Source of the DNA: Gracilaria domingensis
Lineage: Eukaryota > Rhodophyta > Florideophyceae > Gracilariales > Gracilariaceae
NCBI GenBank assembly: GCA_022539475.1
Contig: VCMS01000015.1
Span: 62,001 to 126,000 of the forward strand
Direction of reading: 5' to 3'
Length of the DNA stretch: 64,000 nt
The position numbers were made by a program, and so were the translations under genes. Of this stretch, positions 43,115 to 52,560 are shown piece by piece. Numbering within the stretch: the first letter of the stretch is position 1; each line of letters begins with the position of its first letter. The notes below the pieces were generated by a model that was not told where the DNA came from, did not search any database, and saw only the letters and a list, made by a program, of their open reading frames with translations.

Positions 43115-43122
43115 TATAAAAG
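43115..43122 (+). promoter_or_regulatory. TATA box of the split secreted-protein gene
   Basis: TATAAAAG lies 106 bases upstream of the ATG at 43221. Same octamer and similar spacing as for the genes at 1-239 and 10029. Confidence 0.5.
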
Positions 43123-43343
43123 CGGCGCAGCACAAGGGCGTTGATCAACTCAGCTCTGTTCATCTTACCATCCTCCCGGCAGAAAGCATCTGCAGCCAAG
43201 TCGTATATTAAATTGCCATCATGAATTGCTTTACGCTCATTCTCGTTCTCTCCTGCTCTGTTCTTGTTCTGTCCGCCCCAACAATCGAAAATGAAGCCGA
43301 GAAGCAGCTGAGAGTTGAAGTACCGGCGGTAGAAAGGGCTGGA

Positions 43344-43694
43344 AATGAAAGCTGGGTGTGTGGGAACGAACGACTGATAGACTAATAACAATACTTTTCT
43401 CACGGCGGCGGTGGAGTAGTGGATGGTCTGTGCTTGACCTCCTTCTGTTGTCCGTCGCGCCCTGAACAAGTGGTATTTATGCACTTCCAGAAGCGCTATA
43501 TCTCGTACGAACGCGCTCAGATAATATCTAGACAGCTCACCATCCGTGAGCTCACAAACAACAAAGAGCTGTAAACCCCGCATATGCGCAATTCAGTGTA
43601 GACACGCACGAGTTCACACACGTAAGAACCTCATACAGAATCTGACGTAATACAAGTACGTGTCACAATTGCGCAAACACACGCAATTCTAACA
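43344..43694 (-). repeat. LTR of the Copia element (3' LTR)
   Basis: 351 bp, starting TGTTAGAATTGCGTG in element orientation. No difference from the other LTR was seen. Confidence 0.9.
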
Positions 43695-43716
43695 CCAATC
43701 CATTTTCGAAAACCTA

Positions 43717-46700
43717 CTAGCCAGTAGACTTGTTGGAACTGTTGTAAAGTGCTGCTTCGAAATCAATCGAGATCTTTCCACAGTAGAGCAATAGTTGCAA
43801 AGCTTCCGCCAACGGACTGTCCGTTTTCGTCAGTGGATCACCGTAGTTGCATTTTCCAGGCACCCAGATCATGCGCTCAATCTTCTTTGTCTCGTAGTCA
43901 TATCGAATGACACTGATATCTCCGCGTATAGACCGATCCGTTGCATTACGGCAGGTAGACAGTGTAACGTATAAATCTTTGGAGTCGACAACGATCCATA
44001 ATCCAACTTGGATACCCAACAAAGTCTTGAACGCGTTACACAGAACCTTTCCTTGGTCGATAGCCTCACCGGCTGCAAGAGTTTCTGCCGATCCTATCGA
44101 CTTGACTGGTCTTCGAGACTTGTGTGAACTCCAGCAAATTGTATGAAAGATGGAGTCGATAGAAAGGTCACCAAATAAAAGTCCGGCCACAAATCCCAGT
44201 TGTCCATGATCAGAAGAGCGACTGGCGTCGCAAAACACTACAACGCGACATTCCTTCTGCCCACTTGGTCTTAGAAAACTCAGCAGGGAGCCACGTCTTT
44301 TCAATTCCTTCAAAAGGTTAATCTGAGTTATAAGATCTTTGACAAGCGGTTCAGGCCCTTTCTGTTGGAGGTAGCTCGCAGCATGTGCACAGAACGGAGA
44401 AGCGGCGATCCCTAACCAACCAATTGAGCTATTGACAGAACGAAATGCAGACGACTCAATAGCGTTTAGACACTTGTCAAGTTCCTTGCGGCGATTACGG
44501 CTGATCACGTAGCTTTCGAACGTTTGAAGCTTCTCCTCACCATCAATAGTAACGGTGTAATCTTCCTTCTGGTGCACGCGAAGTCCATAAAAATTGAACG
44601 ATCCAGGGCCATAGACAATTGTGCCAAGTTCATACTGCTTTCCAATTTCCATAATCAACTCAGTAAGCTTACTTCTCTCACCAGCAAATAGTATATCATC
44701 CACTACCTTCACTGCTAGAATGCATGTCCGGCCATTATGTGTGAGGTAGAAAAGTTGTGGGACGTATACTAACTGCATGAATCCAAAGCTGCGAAGAGCA
44801 TCATCACTCACTTGTTGCCATTTGGCACCAGCATTAACCAGACCATATGCCGCTGCCAGGAGCAACCAGTAGTGTTGGTTCCTCGTCGTGCACTCTCTTG
44901 GTGGTATAACATACACATCACGTTCGGCTTCTGTCTGAAGAAACGCACTTTTGAAGTCAATTTTTGCCAATGTCCACTTATGAATGACGGCCAAAGACAG
45001 TAAGATCCGAATTCCAACAGGCGGACAAGTTGCGGAATCAGTCTTGAGTACGTCTTTCTCTCTATCCTTATTACCATGAACAGCGATTCGGGCTTTGAGG
45101 GTAAAGGATTCATCGTCACACTTCTTCACTTTGTACAACACATGACTTGTGACAATGTTGGGGTGGCGAGGGACTTTGGATACAGGAACGACGTGAACTG
45201 TACGCATGAATGACTTCTGTTCTCTTTCGAACGCATTCTGGGTTGCATAAAGCGGCAGTCCTTGAGCTTGGTGAAGCATAAATTCCTGACTACCAAAGGC
45301 TTTAAAGTAGGTAGCAATTATCTCGCGCTCTTTGCTTTCCAACTCCTGGCCAGGGGAGAGTTGAACCTCGGCAGACTGTAAAGTCTCTTGGGCTTGGTTC
45401 TGAGATTCTGTTGCTGCGGTTGTTCCTGGATCCGTACCATTGCCATTATCTGACGCATACCTCCAGTTCTCTTCCTGAAGATTTAAAACTTCCTTATCCC
45501 CATCACGATAGTTCACGGAATACTTCTGCGTGCGTGAGTTGTGTCTGGCCACAGCTCCTGCGTAAAACTGCTTGTCATCCGGCCAATATACTTCGATTTG
45601 GTCACCTATACTGGGATATTGGGGTCCGATGCTTGCAGGTTCTATTTCTGTATCAGCTTGTTGTTCAGATATTCTTTCCGAAGAACTGTCAGCTTGCTCT
45701 CGTGTGTCTTCTTCAGAAGAATCTAGGTAGTCTGAAAGAGATTCTTCTAGCGTTCGGTCCATATCATCAATTGCCTGTTGCACAGCAGTTGCTAGTTCCC
45801 TTGTGCGAAGTGCCGGTCTGACATCTTCGATTGCTGCTGACACTGTTCGGCCTCCCTTACCTGGCACTGTGATAGTTCTACCTTCGAGGTCAAATGAAAG
45901 TATTGGCTTTGGTTCTGACCAACGTCCTCTCTTCTCGTGTTGGAGTTTGATGTAAACTTGTACGAGGTCACCAATAGACATTGGAAATTCTTTCAAGGCT
46001 TTAGAGCGTAGAATGAGAGTTAACTTTCGTTTGGCCAGGAGGTTCTCATGTGCATCTTCCAGTTCCTGAGGCAGTAATGTGGGGCCCTTACCGGCCTCGA
46101 TCGGGCGTGCGTACCCCTTGGCTAGCTCGTGTGCAGACATTACATCATTGCCATACAAATCGTTGGAGATGCGAATTGCCTGACTAATAACCAGGCGCGG
46201 ATGCTGTTGAAAGCCAATGGGAGAATTTTCCTTAAGACGAAGGAAAATATCTCTTATGACCCGATGCTTAGATTCCAGTACGTTCTTGTTATGCCTCCGT
46301 GGCGGTAGAGGCCGGGCTTCTATGTGATGGAACATTAGAAACTGCTTAAACAATGAGTTACTGAATGCTGGATCAAATGCGACGGTATGGGGGAACCAGA
46401 ATGGCGTAATCCAGTGTGCATCAAAAACGTAAATCGCACTCTCCATTGATGCGTTTTCAACGACGCATCCAGCAGAGTACCTTGTGGTGGAGTCCATAAT
46501 GTGCATTACACAGTACTGATCCAAGTACATATGGTCAACACACACCACCTCGTTGAAACTTCTACTCATGCTGCTGAGAGAAACCTTACGGGCTTTTTTT
46601 GGCCTGGCAGTTGTGAGGCAAACAGTACATTCTTCGAGAGTTTTCTCAAGGTAGTCTCGGACTTGTTCGTTCCAAAGACCATTCCTTTGCAGAAGTAACT

Positions 46701-48252
46701 TGATGTCCGTGTAGGTTGAATGTCCACAGATGTGTCTGTGAACTTTGTCGATAATTTTCTTCAACTCTTTCCAAGGCCTGTCGGCGAGACCTTCGTCAAA
46801 ATGAGCTGTAGCACAGAAGAGTGTAGACTTGTCGTGGGTGGTGAGTTGTAAAGGATCACAGGTAAACACGGAGTGTGGGATGTAAGTGTGCATATCCACG
46901 TCGACAAGAGAGATTGTGGGTGTTTCTCCACCTTCTTCGGTGTTGGGCAACTTTAGGAGATTCTCATTCATATGCAAAATGTCACAGCGGGTCGTGACGT
47001 TGCGTCCGACAACCCACTGCGATGACCCCTCCATAACGAGGTGACGGATCTTGACTTCTTCGCCTTGGTCTGTGCGGCCAGTGAGCATGATGGACCCTAA
47101 TAGAGGCCTCGTGTCGCTTCTGTGAGTCCCTGATCCATATTGCCAGTGCGTCTTGTCTGCCACAGGCGCAGGTAGCGGGTCAAGGTTTCCAGTCCATTTC
47201 GGTAGGACCAGGTCTTTGATCATGTGCAGCTCTTCCAAACCAATGCCACTGTATGGTGCTGCGTTGTCCAAAAGTGGACCGTCGGCTCCCAAGAGAGATG
47301 ATGAGGGATTAGCTACCTCGCGTAGCGTTGCCATGTTGAATGTCAGCACATTTTTGTTCTCTTTGGCACCGGTAGCGGGATTGTCCGTTGACTTGAATCC
47401 AGGCTTCAACGATCCATCTCGACGGTGATCGTTAGCCCAATGTCCGTACTTCCCGCATCTATTACACTTTGTCTTCTGTTTGAGGTCAATGATCTCCTCC
47501 GGTGTCATACGCTGACGTTGTGCGGCCTTGCGACCCCCAGAGCGAGATGATGAAGCGAAAGAGGCGTTGGTGGACAGGGTTGTCGCGGCAGAGGGCGATG
47601 ACTGGCTTCGAACTTTGTCACACTGTCGAAGAACGGAGGCAATAGATTCGTATGAAACGGCTTTGAGAAAGTCATCGGTACTAGACGTGGAGGTAAATGT
47701 GTGGTCCTTGGCTGAACAGTTCGCGAGAACGGACACACGCTGGTTGCTGTCCACATCCGAATTGGCCAACAAAGTGAAGGCCACTAGTGCTTCCGACAAT
47801 TTTGCCTCGGTACCATGGGCGTTCACACGAGATACATGCGCTTGGAACCGCGATTCGAAGTTCTTAAAGCTTTCGTTGGCATTCCTCTTAGTGTTAAGGA
47901 GCGCCAAAAAATCCTGATAGACATCAGAGACGACAGCCAGGGGGTCACGCTTGTACAAAGCGTCGACAATCGCTTGGGCTCCGGCCTCGGAGCGAATAGT
48001 ATCCGCAGGGATCGATTTGCAGATATCTCGTGCTCGACCAAACAGTTGAGACAGAAGCATGATGCCTTGAACAGCTGGTCTGATCTTGTTATCGTTGGTG
48101 TCGGCCAACGTCTGGTGAAAAGCCTGCCACAGTGAAACGGCGTTTGCATACTGCTCTTGGCTTCCCTTTCCATCCGTCCAAGGAACGTTTCGTATGTCCC
48201 AAGAAAACCGCGGGCGCGTCGGCAGATTGTTAGAGGAACTTTCTGGGCCCAT
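43717..48252 (-). CDS. Copia gag-pol polyprotein
   Basis: One ORF of about 1,511 residues from an ATG (MGPESSSNN) just inside the 5' LTR. Domains in order, with window positions: gag (about 47500-48250); CCHC zinc knuckle CNRCGKYGHWANDH (about 47430-47470); aspartic protease region (about 47220-47290); HHCC pre-integrase zinc domain (about 46600-46760); integrase core (about 46250-46580); a Tudor/chromo-like module, IGDQIEVYWPDDKQFYAGAV (about 45460-45620); reverse transcriptase with VVDDILFAG (about 44640-45150); and RNase H (about 43850-44270). The gag-protease-integrase-RT-RNase H order identifies Copia. The Tudor-like module between integrase and RT is unusual. Confidence 0.95.
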   Translation of the reverse strand: MGPESSSNNLPTRPRFSWDIRNVPWTDGKGSQEQYANAVSLWQAFHQTLADTNDNKIRPAVQGIMLLSQLFGRARDICKSIPADTIRSEAGAQAIVDALYKRDPLAVVSDVYQDFLALLNTKRNANESFKNFESRFQAHVSRVNAHGTEAKLSEALVAFTLLANSDVDSNQRVSVLANCSAKDHTFTSTSSTDDFLKAVSYESIASVLRQCDKVRSQSSPSAATTLSTNASFASSSRSGGRKAAQRQRMTPEEIIDLKQKTKCNRCGKYGHWANDHRRDGSLKPGFKSTDNPATGAKENKNVLTFNMATLREVANPSSSLLGADGPLLDNAAPYSGIGLEELHMIKDLVLPKWTGNLDPLPAPVADKTHWQYGSGTHRSDTRPLLGSIMLTGRTDQGEEVKIRHLVMEGSSQWVVGRNVTTRCDILHMNENLLKLPNTEEGGETPTISLVDVDMHTYIPHSVFTCDPLQLTTHDKSTLFCATAHFDEGLADRPWKELKKIIDKVHRHICGHSTYTDIKLLLQRNGLWNEQVRDYLEKTLEECTVCLTTARPKKARKVSLSSMSRSFNEVVCVDHMYLDQYCVMHIMDSTTRYSAGCVVENASMESAIYVFDAHWITPFWFPHTVAFDPAFSNSLFKQFLMFHHIEARPLPPRRHNKNVLESKHRVIRDIFLRLKENSPIGFQQHPRLVISQAIRISNDLYGNDVMSAHELAKGYARPIEAGKGPTLLPQELEDAHENLLAKRKLTLILRSKALKEFPMSIGDLVQVYIKLQHEKRGRWSEPKPILSFDLEGRTITVPGKGGRTVSAAIEDVRPALRTRELATAVQQAIDDMDRTLEESLSDYLDSSEEDTREQADSSSERISEQQADTEIEPASIGPQYPSIGDQIEVYWPDDKQFYAGAVARHNSRTQKYSVNYRDGDKEVLNLQEENWRYASDNGNGTDPGTTAATESQNQAQETLQSAEVQLSPGQELESKEREIIATYFKAFGSQEFMLHQAQGLPLYATQNAFEREQKSFMRTVHVVPVSKVPRHPNIVTSHVLYKVKKCDDESFTLKARIAVHGNKDREKDVLKTDSATCPPVGIRILLSLAVIHKWTLAKIDFKSAFLQTEAERDVYVIPPRECTTRNQHYWLLLAAAYGLVNAGAKWQQVSDDALRSFGFMQLVYVPQLFYLTHNGRTCILAVKVVDDILFAGERSKLTELIMEIGKQYELGTIVYGPGSFNFYGLRVHQKEDYTVTIDGEEKLQTFESYVISRNRRKELDKCLNAIESSAFRSVNSSIGWLGIAASPFCAHAASYLQQKGPEPLVKDLITQINLLKELKRRGSLLSFLRPSGQKECRVVVFCDASRSSDHGQLGFVAGLLFGDLSIDSIFHTICWSSHKSRRPVKSIGSAETLAAGEAIDQGKVLCNAFKTLLGIQVGLWIVVDSKDLYVTLSTCRNATDRSIRGDISVIRYDYETKKIERMIWVPGKCNYGDPLTKTDSPLAEALQLLLYCGKISIDFEAALYNSSNKSTG

Positions 48253-48255
48253 AAC

Positions 48256-48606
48256 AATGAAAGCTGGGTGTGTGGGAACGAACGACTGATAGACTAATAA
48301 CAATACTTTTCTCACGGCGGCGGTGGAGTAGTGGATGGTCTGTGCTTGACCTCCTTCTGTTGTCCGTCGCGCCCTGAACAAGTGGTATTTATGCACTTCC
48401 AGAAGCGCTATATCTCGTACGAACGCGCTCAGATAATATCTAGACAGCTCACCATCCGTGAGCTCACAAACAACAAAGAGCTGTAAACCCCGCATATGCG
48501 CAATTCAGTGTAGACACGCACGAGTTCACACACGTAAGAACCTCATACAGAATCTGACGTAATACAAGTACGTGTCACAATTGCGCAAACACACGCAATT
48601 CTAACA
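48256..48606 (-). repeat. LTR of the Copia element (5' LTR)
   Basis: 351 bp, the promoter-side LTR in element orientation. The polyprotein ATG follows four bases further inside. Confidence 0.9.
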
Positions 48607-48721
48607 CTGGAGAAGTGGATTTGCATGCTTCTGAACGTCAGGAAGGTTCAGGAGGGTCAGGAGGCTTTGCGAGATTTGGAGGATTTGGAGCTTGGGGCAA
48701 GAAGAAGTTCCCTACGAAACC

Positions 48722-48857
48722 GTTTCCTCCGAAATTTCCTCCAAGGAAGTTCCCTCCGAAGAAGTTCCCTCCGAGGAAGTTCCCTCCGAAGAATTTCCCT
48801 CCGAGGACGTTCCCTCCGAAGAATTTCGGGCCGAAGAAGTTCCCGCCGAAGAAGGTT
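48722..48857 (+). repeat. 15-bp tandem repeat coding FPPK/R-x pentapeptides
   Basis: Units of the type AAGTTCCCTCCGAAG repeat about nine times with small changes, inside the 3' part of the split secreted-protein gene. The array is prone to length change by slippage. Confidence 0.8.
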
Positions 48858-48878
48858 CTAGTAGAGAAGTACTATTAG

Positions 48879-49324
48879 TTCCCTAAAACTTTAAGATGGC
48901 GGTGTGTAAGTCAATAATCTGCTTGCTGTGTTGAGTGCGGGAGTTTTTGCCATCTTTAGCGCACCAGCTGCTGAGTGTTTAGTGCACTCAGTGAAGGCGC
49001 GGCATTCATAGTAAATGCCAAGACGGAAGTGTCGTTTGCTTTGACAAAAGATGATCAAATACCCATTGCTGAAACAAGCCGTTGTTATTGAAGATTGATC
49101 CCTGTCGCAAAATCCTTTCTTGTTTTTAACAGACTGTGTCCTTCTTCTTCGAATTCGCGAAGACTCCTGAGTAACTGAACAGCTACTACGTGTATCTCCC
49201 GGCATCTCCCCGCAGAATTCGTAAGGAAGAACGCAGACCTGCATCTCCCTCCCATGAAACGTGTTGTGTGAGAGTGTACACGTCATCATTCGCAAAGCGG
49301 CGAAGTTTCAAAATTTTAAATTCT
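48879..49324. other. Downstream of the secreted-protein gene
   Basis: No gene recognised; a 134-codon minus ORF (48891-49295) lacks motifs. Confidence 0.35.
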
Positions 49325-49750
49325 AGGATTTCGAGGAACGAAGAAGATGATTTATTTTGAACGGGAGTGAGTGGATTGAAGATCTAAAGAGCGCAGGCGG
49401 CGCTCTTGATAGAGAGGCAGCGCTTTTGACAATCGTCATGGCCAACGATCGTCATCGCCGTCGCTGCGCCGCAGAGCCCCGTCGTTCTCCTCTCGCGATG
49501 TGGGTCTCTGCGACGCTCTTTATGAATTTAGTTTTCCCTTCCCTCCCACCTGTGGAGCAGTGTTGTCTCCATGGGACTCACTGAACGCGTCCGGTTGTGC
49601 CGGAGGGTGCAGCAGAACCTTATGGGCGGGTGCCTGTTCTGTGTCTCCGAACTACCCAAACACCAAAGATCTACAAGAGACCGAAATGAGAGTGGTCAAT
49701 AAAACTATTTACAGCATCCAATCGAAGATTCATGAACTAGGTCAAATCCT
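49325..49750 (+). repeat. Repeated module, copy C (unclassified)
   Basis: Opens AGGATTTCGAGGAACGAAGA and GATGATTTATTTTGAACGGG, as in copies A (4588) and B (7388). It passes through a GC-rich CGTCATCGCCGTCGCTGC stretch and shares the AACACCAAAGATCTACAAGA block with the end of copy B. Frames such as EWIEDLKSAGGALDREAALL and RHRRRCAAEPRRSP look protein-like, so this may be the best-preserved copy of a coding exon, but no family is recognised. Confidence 0.45.
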
Positions 49751-50512: not shown

Positions 50513-52333
50513 TCAGAGAGTATTGTACTCCCAAAAATCTGAGATTCTTTCAGACTCCACGTTCAAATCCAAAGGATGGTTGAACGGAGCGAACGTGCTC
50601 GGAGAACCAATTGCTAAGCACTCTGTGTCACCAATGCCGTAGCTAAAGGTTCCCGTCGGACACTGCTCGCAAAGTGTCGCACCATCATGTCGCGTCACGA
50701 AGCCAGCGTCACATTTTTGACAGGGTGCACTCTCCGTGCACCTACGGCACATCGAATTCAACATTCTCTCGTAGCTTGCAACCACCCGATACGTTCCTGC
50801 AGGGCATGCAACGCACTCGTGATGCTCTCCACTTGCAACCAAAGCACCATAGCTGCCAGCGGGGCACACAGAGCATGTCGCGTTTATGAGCCCCAAGTTT
50901 TGCGCAAGTGGTCCTCGGCAACCGCAAACATAGTCGTAACTTCTTACTTCATATCCAGGACAGGGCGGACAGTCGTCAAAATCAGCTGCACTGTAGAACG
51001 ACCCGGAGCAGGGACCACATGATATTGAGCCGTCCTCTGCCACCTTGCATTTTTTCGATAGACAATATTGCGAATGCGGATTACTGAAAAGCCGCGTACC
51101 AATAGGACAGTTGGTGAAGCGGTCCACGCAGCGAGTAGAATAATCGTTCGGTACCATTCCTTCAGGGCACACTTCACAGCTTGTTGCACCCTCTTCTGTG
51201 GAAAGTGTTCCGTTCGGGCAACGACGACACTCAGAAGAATTTGAAGCCGAGCTGAAGCTTCCAATGGGGCAGGGCTCACAGACGCGCGCATATTCTTCTT
51301 CACGCACAAAAGTTCCAGGAGCACAGGTTTGGTTTAGAGGAAGAACTATACGCGAATAATCCCATGAAACACAGTGAGATTTAAACACTCGCGCCGCAAT
51401 GACTTCCGAACATGGCGCACATTGCAGTGGCAGACCACCTACACTGCCTTCGCTAGCAGAGCATGGTACGCATCGTTCCTGTTCTCGGTCATACATTTCA
51501 TCGGTTTCGCATCGCTCACAGTCTCCAGTTGAAGTTTGGATGTAGCCGCGTGGACATGGTCCATCGATTCGTCGACAGAGTCTTCTACCACTGGTATAAG
51601 ACATTGTACCATTCGGGCAATCGATGCAGCTTGGGATATCGTAGTATCCCAGCGTTACCTTACCGTACTGACCGGGTTGACATGGAATGCAAGTTGTAGA
51701 ACCAAGAAACGTTTCTGCTGTCGAACCCGGCGGACATAACGTGCATTTTGCGGAAGATGCGGTACTGAACATATAAGGCCCACACTGGACACAGGGACTG
51801 TCGCCGGCAGAATCTGTACCGGCTGGGCATGGAGTGCATTGATCAATAGAAATGGCTCCAAGAGGTGCTGCAGATCCGGGAGGACAACGTTTGCACTTGA
51901 AAAGATTTTCCTCGTCGCCATATCCACCATTGCATGGACTACAACCATTCTCATTGCTACTCGGCGATGTCGTTAGTATGTGTGTTCCTTTCGGGCATGA
52001 TGCTACACACAGTGGCGAACGCTTTGTCGAGAACAGGCCTTCTGGGCATGGAGTACATGACGACGAGCCTCTCCCAGAAAACATTCCTGCTGGACAACTT
52101 CTGCAAACTTCAGAGCGTTGAGCTCCAGCATACGAAAGATACTGACCATAGTCACAGAGTTTGCAGCTGCTGGAGTTCTCCAAATTCTGGAATGATCCTG
52201 GAGGGCAGAGGCTACATTCAAATGTAGACGAGTTCCAGAAAGACCCTCTTGGGCAACCGTTAGCTAAGGCGGCACGATAGTATAGGAGGAGAATGGAGAA
52301 ACTCAGAAGCCTGGATAATATTTGATTCGCCAT
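50513..52333 (-). CDS. Secreted cysteine-rich GCC2/GCC3 (ephrin-receptor-like) repeat protein
   Basis: A 606-residue intact ORF from ATG 52333 (an upstream in-frame TTG is not needed). Residues ~1-25 are a signal peptide (LLSFSILLLYYRAALANG). The rest is a chain of CPPG-/CPAG-type modules, for example CSLCPPGSFQNLENSSSCKL, CPAGMFSGRGSSSCTPCPEG, CPIGSFSSASNSSECRRCPN and CPAGTYRVVASYERML, matching the Tyr-kinase ephrin A/B receptor-like (GCC2/GCC3) fold. No transmembrane helix or kinase domain follows; the C-terminus is a short acidic tail (NVESERISDFWEYNTL). Several NxS/T sites suit an extracellular glycoprotein. Red algae are known to have many such genes of unknown role; wall or matrix adhesion, or ligand binding, is likely. 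No introns are needed. Confidence 0.9.
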   Translation of the reverse strand: MANQILSRLLSFSILLLYYRAALANGCPRGSFWNSSTFECSLCPPGSFQNLENSSSCKLCDYGQYLSYAGAQRSEVCRSCPAGMFSGRGSSSCTPCPEGLFSTKRSPLCVASCPKGTHILTTSPSSNENGCSPCNGGYGDEENLFKCKRCPPGSAAPLGAISIDQCTPCPAGTDSAGDSPCVQCGPYMFSTASSAKCTLCPPGSTAETFLGSTTCIPCQPGQYGKVTLGYYDIPSCIDCPNGTMSYTSGRRLCRRIDGPCPRGYIQTSTGDCERCETDEMYDREQERCVPCSASEGSVGGLPLQCAPCSEVIAARVFKSHCVSWDYSRIVLPLNQTCAPGTFVREEEYARVCEPCPIGSFSSASNSSECRRCPNGTLSTEEGATSCEVCPEGMVPNDYSTRCVDRFTNCPIGTRLFSNPHSQYCLSKKCKVAEDGSISCGPCSGSFYSAADFDDCPPCPGYEVRSYDYVCGCRGPLAQNLGLINATCSVCPAGSYGALVASGEHHECVACPAGTYRVVASYERMLNSMCRRCTESAPCQKCDAGFVTRHDGATLCEQCPTGTFSYGIGDTECLAIGSPSTFAPFNHPLDLNVESERISDFWEYNTL

Positions 52334-52560
52334 CAAGGTTGTAGAGCGTTTGTACAGTTATTCTCCAATTTACTTCTTCCTGGCAGTCGAAAGCTGTGTG
52401 TTTTTCGGCTCCGATGGGTACTGCTAGTGGTTTGAGCGATCGTTGTGGGTCATATACGAGAAAGAACTTGTTCAGAGACTTGGAAAGATGCATGGGAGTG
52501 TCCAAAGAGTCCCCGTTTCGGTTACACAAGCCGAGATGCAATACAATGAGCTCCTACTAC

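Follow-up and report, generated by a model that had tools for sequence, protein, structure and literature searches.

A young Copia element with a Tudor-like domain very probably split a basic repeat-protein gene in the red alga Gracilaria domingensis

In a stretch of 64,000 nucleotides from the genome of the red alga Gracilaria domingensis (C15:62001-126000 of a 77.9-Mb assembly in 680 contigs; hereafter called the window), a gene has very probably been split by a young retrotransposon of the Copia type, a judgment that concerns the event itself and leaves the function of the gene aside. The element, 5,263 bp in length, occupies positions 43344-48606 (minus strand), in antisense orientation relative to the host gene that it interrupts. 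It is bounded by two long terminal repeats (LTRs) of 351 bp, the downstream one in element orientation at 43344-43694 (minus strand) and the upstream one at 48256-48606 (minus strand), which are identical (351/351, 0 mismatches), as they had appeared to be in the initial annotation of the window. The target-site duplication CTGGA flanks the element at 43339-43343 and 48607-48611 (plus strand). As Copia insertions go, this one is ordinary. On its left lies the 5' half of the host gene (43221-43343, plus strand), in which an ATG at 43221 opens 41 codons for a signal-peptide-like start and an acidic segment. On its right lies the 3' half (48612-48878, plus strand), with 88 codons (48612-48875) for a Gly-rich linker and basic F-P-P-K/R repeats, followed by a stop codon at 48876-48878. 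When the flanks are joined at a single CTGGA, one open frame of 129 codons results, with stops in the other two frames, which bears out the earlier proposal that start and end of the gene are in phase across the duplication.

This in-phase join is weak evidence when taken alone, because at seven of the eight joined empty sites of the element family, the junction lies within a stop-to-stop frame of 100 codons or more, the exception being the site on contig C297 (80 codons). For the same reason, in-phase flanks were rejected as sufficient proof. The split gene is considered real because an uncut paralogue (G000:C102:153997-154293, minus strand) carries both halves in one frame of 98 codons, which is open through the exact insertion point and contains a single CTGGA. 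The C15 and C102 copies have in common a closely similar start, the sequence EVPAVERAG|EVDL at the insertion point (indicated by the vertical bar) and a WGKKKFP junction; KFPPKR-type repeats are fewer in C102. Thus, an open reading frame (ORF) that joins the two flanks does exist in the same genome, and the initial view that a young Copia element has split a gene for a repeat protein whose start resembles a signal peptide could be sustained. The long frames at the family sites would allow for two unrelated flanking frames that are in phase by chance. Such a coincidence is extremely improbable in view of the uninterrupted frame in C102, which is moreover accompanied by homologous upstream DNA and a homologous 3' untranslated region (UTR).

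Over the coding region, comparison of the two copies showed 106/123 identical nucleotides for the 5' half and 121/153 for the part of the 3' half that could be aligned, as against 227/317 in the upstream flank and 217/291 in the 3' UTR. The gaps in the coding halves (12, 3, 3, 3, 42, 12, and 60 nucleotides) are all multiples of three, and those in the upstream flank (11 at its end, 7, 3, 7, 2, and 1) and in the 3' UTR (13, 1, 1, 4, 2, 8, 7, and 4) are mostly not. Homology extends in patches over ~2 kb upstream, which is read as a putative segmental duplication. A TATAAAAG box at 43115-43122 (plus strand), located in a block that is conserved with the paralogue, may represent the core promoter for the host gene. 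A degenerate 23-nucleotide pattern for EVPAVERA, which would miss diverged members, matched only C15 and C102 in the assembly, and a weak third protein match to the host protein was found at C176 (E 0.57, 30%).

Several points weigh against the reading of a split gene. The insertion account is known from DNA alone, for the C15 and C102 copies alike, and an intron or an alternative start is possible in the host gene. The signal peptide was recognized by visual inspection, and only two members of the host gene family (C15 and C102) were found in the assembly. Furthermore, the ratio of nonsynonymous to synonymous substitution rates (dN/dS) over 57 aligned non-repeat codons was 0.72, with a bootstrap interval (2.5-97.5%) of 0.28-2.48 and values below 1 in 71% of 1,999 finite replicates; hence, selection on the protein may have been absent at the time of the insertion. 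There is a fair chance, if not an even one, that the C15 copy was a relaxed duplicate already decaying before the insertion, which would then have been neutral. The existence of a paralogue and a dN/dS not clearly below 1 are in line with such prior decay. However, the joined halves still offer 129 codons without a stop or a frame-changing gap relative to the paralogue, and they are better conserved than the flanks. The initial annotation had supposed that the host gene was working recently. The lack of stops and the gaps in multiples of three speak weakly in favor of this supposition, but the dN/dS does not.

Continued function of the split gene, through removal of the element as an intron or through expression of the repeat half from a new start, is very unlikely. 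Elements that are spliced out or have become exons are a known general phenomenon, but no sign of such an arrangement was seen here. The element and the gene run in opposite directions, and the frame from the old ATG ends 42 nucleotides inside the LTR. This leftover frame of 54 codons, with its stop at 43383-43385, consists of the signal-peptide-like start, the acidic segment and 13 LTR-encoded residues. The frame of the repeat half opens at 48558, and there is no in-frame ATG in the 3' half before the repeats; thus, a repeat ORF with a start of its own, raised at the outset as an alternative, was not found. The simplest reading is that the C15 copy has been lost and that the C102 copy is still there. 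The Copia retrotransposon would have integrated in antisense orientation into one of two diverged paralogues, between its codons 41 and 42, thereby generating the 5-bp CTGGA duplication and disrupting the host gene. The product of the C15 copy would consequently be lost, and the sister copy at C102 remains open.

Other copies of the element help to define its borders and its age. An LTR probe gave at least 15 matches at eight places in the assembly. The target-site duplication is a perfect 5 bp at seven of these eight insertions and contains one mismatch at the remaining one (C326), and the borders of the element are therefore well fixed. In the six elements with two full LTRs, the number of differences between the LTRs over 351 bp is zero in C15, C174, and C119, one in C70 and C21, and four in C326, and the family has probably been active recently. 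At C206, the probe aligns with one of the LTRs for no more than 84 of its 327 bases. A single LTR match at C297:71568-71918 is apparently a solo LTR with a perfect CTCAC duplication; an ORF encoding a caspase domain begins ~0.5 kb away from it.

The absence of LTR differences in C15 corresponds to a 95% upper limit of 3/351, which translates into 0.33, 0.85, and 4.3 million years at rates of 1.3e-8, 5e-9, and 1e-9, respectively. These are assumed rates, none of them measured in red algae. Identical LTRs only bound the age of an insertion, here to roughly 0.3-4 million years, and the deduction of polymorphism from their identity was set aside as unsupported. Indeed, the assembly yielded no empty allele: apart from the filled site itself, DNA and protein probes of the 5' flank matched a single diverged paralogue. 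The earlier suggestion that the insertion is probably polymorphic is not retained. The surroundings of the family insertions were inspected in a Pfam scan of ten ORFs picked from 14 flank stretches. At C70, the insertion lies in the pol frame of a Gypsy element (RVT_1, E 4.8e-34). Of the other ORFs, one near C206 gave a weak match to hAT and one near C297 a caspase domain, and seven gave nothing. A preference of the family for genes was set aside on this mixed flank content, eight sites being too few and too mixed for a claim of targeting.

The protein encoded by the host gene is unusual in composition. The Pro/Lys/Phe pentapeptide repeats that had been noticed in its C-terminal part correspond to a genuine 15-nucleotide array, in which nine overlapping 60-nucleotide copies with a spacing of 15 nucleotides are 60-92% identical to the reference copy. 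A pattern drawn from the array itself gave, with up to two mismatches, seven matches vs. a mean of 0.01 in shuffled sequences. The acidic segment has a net charge of -5 in 38 residues in C15 and of -6 in 43 residues in C102, and the basic tail has a net charge of +18 in 59 and +19 in 37 residues, respectively. As anticipated in the initial annotation, the protein resembles no known family. Pfam searches gave no family for either half in the window at an E-value of 0.01 and none for the C102 paralogue at an E-value of 1, and the prokaryotic library NCBIfam gave no match for the C102 paralogue and the host 3' half. Matches of the repeat half in PDB (CATSPER2, E 0.041; p300-NUT, E 0.15) are weak and were taken as compositional. 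The same applies to two matches of the paralogue in bacterial contigs (L077 and L078), which cover only residues 58-88, i.e., the basic repeat. The viral contigs searched with the C102 paralogue gave no match, and no red-algal protein of this kind was present among the literature titles found.

The signal-peptide-like start suggests that the host protein is exported, and the wall or adhesive role suggested in the initial annotation is an inference. One possibility, favored somewhat short of evenly, is that the FPPK/R tail binds the sulfated galactans of the cell wall as a polycation, with the acidic segment offsetting its charge during export. Plant proline-rich proteins and extensins, which contain PPVYK or Ser-Pro4 repeats, offer a parallel. 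Like the host protein, they are basic and built of short repeats that combine Pro and Lys with an aromatic residue, and they are known to be secreted, as is presumed for the host protein. In contrast, the host repeat is KFPPK/R rather than PPVYK or Ser-Pro4, and it has no family match. Alternatively, although this is rather unlikely, the protein may be a secreted antimicrobial precursor, in which a signal peptide and an acidic pro-segment precede a cationic proline-rich peptide that would be released near WGKKKFP. Bactenecins are proline-rich antimicrobial precursors with a similar layout. The charge layout, which is alike in the C15 and C102 paralogues, the conserved WGKKKFP junction and the variable repeat number would suit such a precursor. 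However, there is no match to any curated family, the repeats are mostly Lys-Phe-Pro-Pro, unlike the Arg-Pro motifs of such peptides, and cleavage and activity are purely conjectural here. The variation in repeat number, combined with conservation of the segment at the insertion point and of the junction, fits the wall and the defense reading alike. Judged by composition and layout, a wall polycation appears somewhat likelier than a proline-rich defense peptide.

The element itself contains a single long open frame (43717-48504, minus strand) of 1595 codons from stop to stop, which opens inside the LTR and was searched in three pieces. It encodes a reverse transcriptase of the Copia type (RVT_2) at 44563-45183 (minus strand; E 5.7e-20, 72.4 bits vs. 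a cut-off of 31.6) and, at 47428-47469 (minus strand), a weak match to the CCHC zinc knuckle of gag (E 0.0045, 17.5 bits vs. a curated cut-off of 20.8). The integrase domain rve was not matched at an E-value of 0.01 in the pieces of this frame. In two other elements, L070 and L081, rve precedes the Tudor domain described below, in both cases with a score below the curated cut-off, and RVT_2 follows in L070. A probable primer-binding site, GTTATGGGCCCAG, abuts the LTR at 48243-48255 (minus strand), and its 13 nucleotides are complementary to nucleotides 27-39 of tRNA-Met, with an exact complement in four tRNA-Met genes of the genome. An ATG in the gag frame falls inside this presumed site. Drosophila copia is primed by a 5' fragment (half) of tRNA-Met. 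The site in the window likewise complements the anticodon arm of tRNA-Met, ending at nucleotide 39; priming by a tRNA fragment is established for Drosophila copia, whereas the relation is known from complementarity alone for the element in the window. Nothing on primer sites was found in PMC2806351.

With its paired LTRs, short target-site duplications and RVT_2 reverse transcriptase, the element belongs to the Ty1/copia group, of which PyRE10G of Porphyra yezoensis and CoPorcru of Porphyridium are described as red algal representatives (PMC3587641). The 5-bp length of the duplications and the single long frame are further similarities to Ty1/copia elements, as would be the putative, weakly matching CCHC motif. 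The element differs from them, and from the red algal elements as these are described, by a Tudor-like domain that precedes the reverse transcriptase. Other differences are LTRs that end in TG...TT in element orientation and a presumed primer site that would pair with the anticodon arm of tRNA-Met.

The Tudor-like domain (PF21743) is located at 45460-45612 (minus strand). It passes the Pfam cut-off of 27.2 bits marginally, with 28.1 bits in a 102-residue piece and 29.0 bits in the genome search, and falls below it (25.1 bits) when embedded in a 500-residue piece. Its best match in PDB is 7de9_A (E 4.3e-9), the Tudor domain of RDM15 of Arabidopsis, which is a reader of monomethylated lysine 4 of histone H3 (H3K4me1) (PMC8184781). 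In RDM15, W616, Y623, Y641, D643, D645, and E647 constitute the aromatic cage and the hydrogen-bond partners (PMC8184781), and all six are kept in the domain in the window. In contrast to RDM15, the latter is part of a retrotransposon polyprotein; 19 of 51 residues are identical between the two, and Q654 is replaced by Glu according to the alignment. A structure model from the single sequence, with a mean predicted local distance difference test (pLDDT) score of 53.5, was too poor for use. Conservation was further examined in 20 Tudor domains from the 27 places described below, i.e., those of 19 loci plus the window, one of which (L067) belongs to a host protein. W616 is conserved in 18, Y623 in 20, Y641 in 20, D643 in 19, D645 in 12, and E647 in 20 of these domains. 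The three cage residues W, Y, and Y are kept together in 18 of the 20, with the Trp replaced by Arg in L081 and by a stop in L088, and all six residues are kept in 11. The pair credited with the specificity for monomethylation is thus less well kept than the cage.

In the assembly, PF21743 was detected at 27 places, 20 of which score over the cut-off; it had no match in any of 14 control genomes. Tudor-like domains were noted in the window and in loci L068-L076 and L081-L089, mostly in Copia polyproteins. A Pfam search was run on one ORF from each of 15 of the 27 places, including one (L074) that is another copy of the family in the window; the 12 remaining places include five further copies of this family. 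RVT_2 was present in the same frame in nine of the 15 ORFs (above cut-off in eight), and a weak integrase match was the only additional one in another. Four had neither RVT_2 nor integrase, their frames ending soon after or starting soon before the domain, and the last one encodes a host SET/PWWP protein. These counts indicate that, in this genome, the Tudor domain is a part of Copia elements of several sequence types and also of a host chromatin protein. The latter (L067, G000:C227:65690-65809) combines PWWP and SET domains with a C-terminal Tudor domain, and a host protein of this type is a conceivable source of the Tudor domain of the retrotransposons. At G000:C13:126087-141944, four Tudor matches with identical scores are spaced by 5,253-5,255 bp, the first with RVT_2 in the same frame, which suggests a tandem array of one Copia element.

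A transposable element with a Tudor domain has been described before. Gypsy-10_Ec32 of Ectocarpus is, to its authors' knowledge, the first one reported (PMC12477816, 2025). Like the elements described here, it has an LTR-retrotransposon polyprotein with a Tudor domain, but it is a Gypsy element with the domain at its C terminus, whereas here Copia elements carry the domain, which precedes their reverse transcriptase. The available parts of that paper give Tudor acquisition only for the Gypsy element, and those of another (PMC9998398) deal with Tudor domains in DNA methyltransferases, not in Copia elements. No Tudor-bearing Copia element turned up in the literature searched, part of which was accessible only as excerpts; this is no proof of absence. 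As a tentative and rather doubtful proposal, a red-algal Copia lineage would have taken up a Tudor domain into pol, and this domain may bind methylated H3K4 and steer integration to active chromatin, the split gene being one product of such steering.

Some features in the vicinity and elsewhere in the genome were also recorded. At 49324-49400 of the window, a short dispersed repeat is present, with at least 37 other matches in the assembly at 80-95% identity. A Cys-rich frame of 614 codons at 50513-52357 (minus strand), with Ephrin_rec_like and NCD3G-type matches, adjoins the split gene and likely encodes a surface or secreted protein. Contig C680 contains eight near full-length matches to phycobilisome subunits and two partial ones, as in a red algal plastid.

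What deserves further attention here is the orphan gene pair, together with the Copia elements that carry a Tudor domain. With the insertion, one gene of the orphan pair has been cleanly disrupted in nature, and its intact sister copy can serve as the control. With a split gene at C15 and an intact one at C102, the function of a red-algal basic FPPK-repeat protein becomes testable. If the Tudor domain does read H3K4 methylation, these elements would represent another case of a retrotransposon with an acquired chromatin reader, here of the Copia type.

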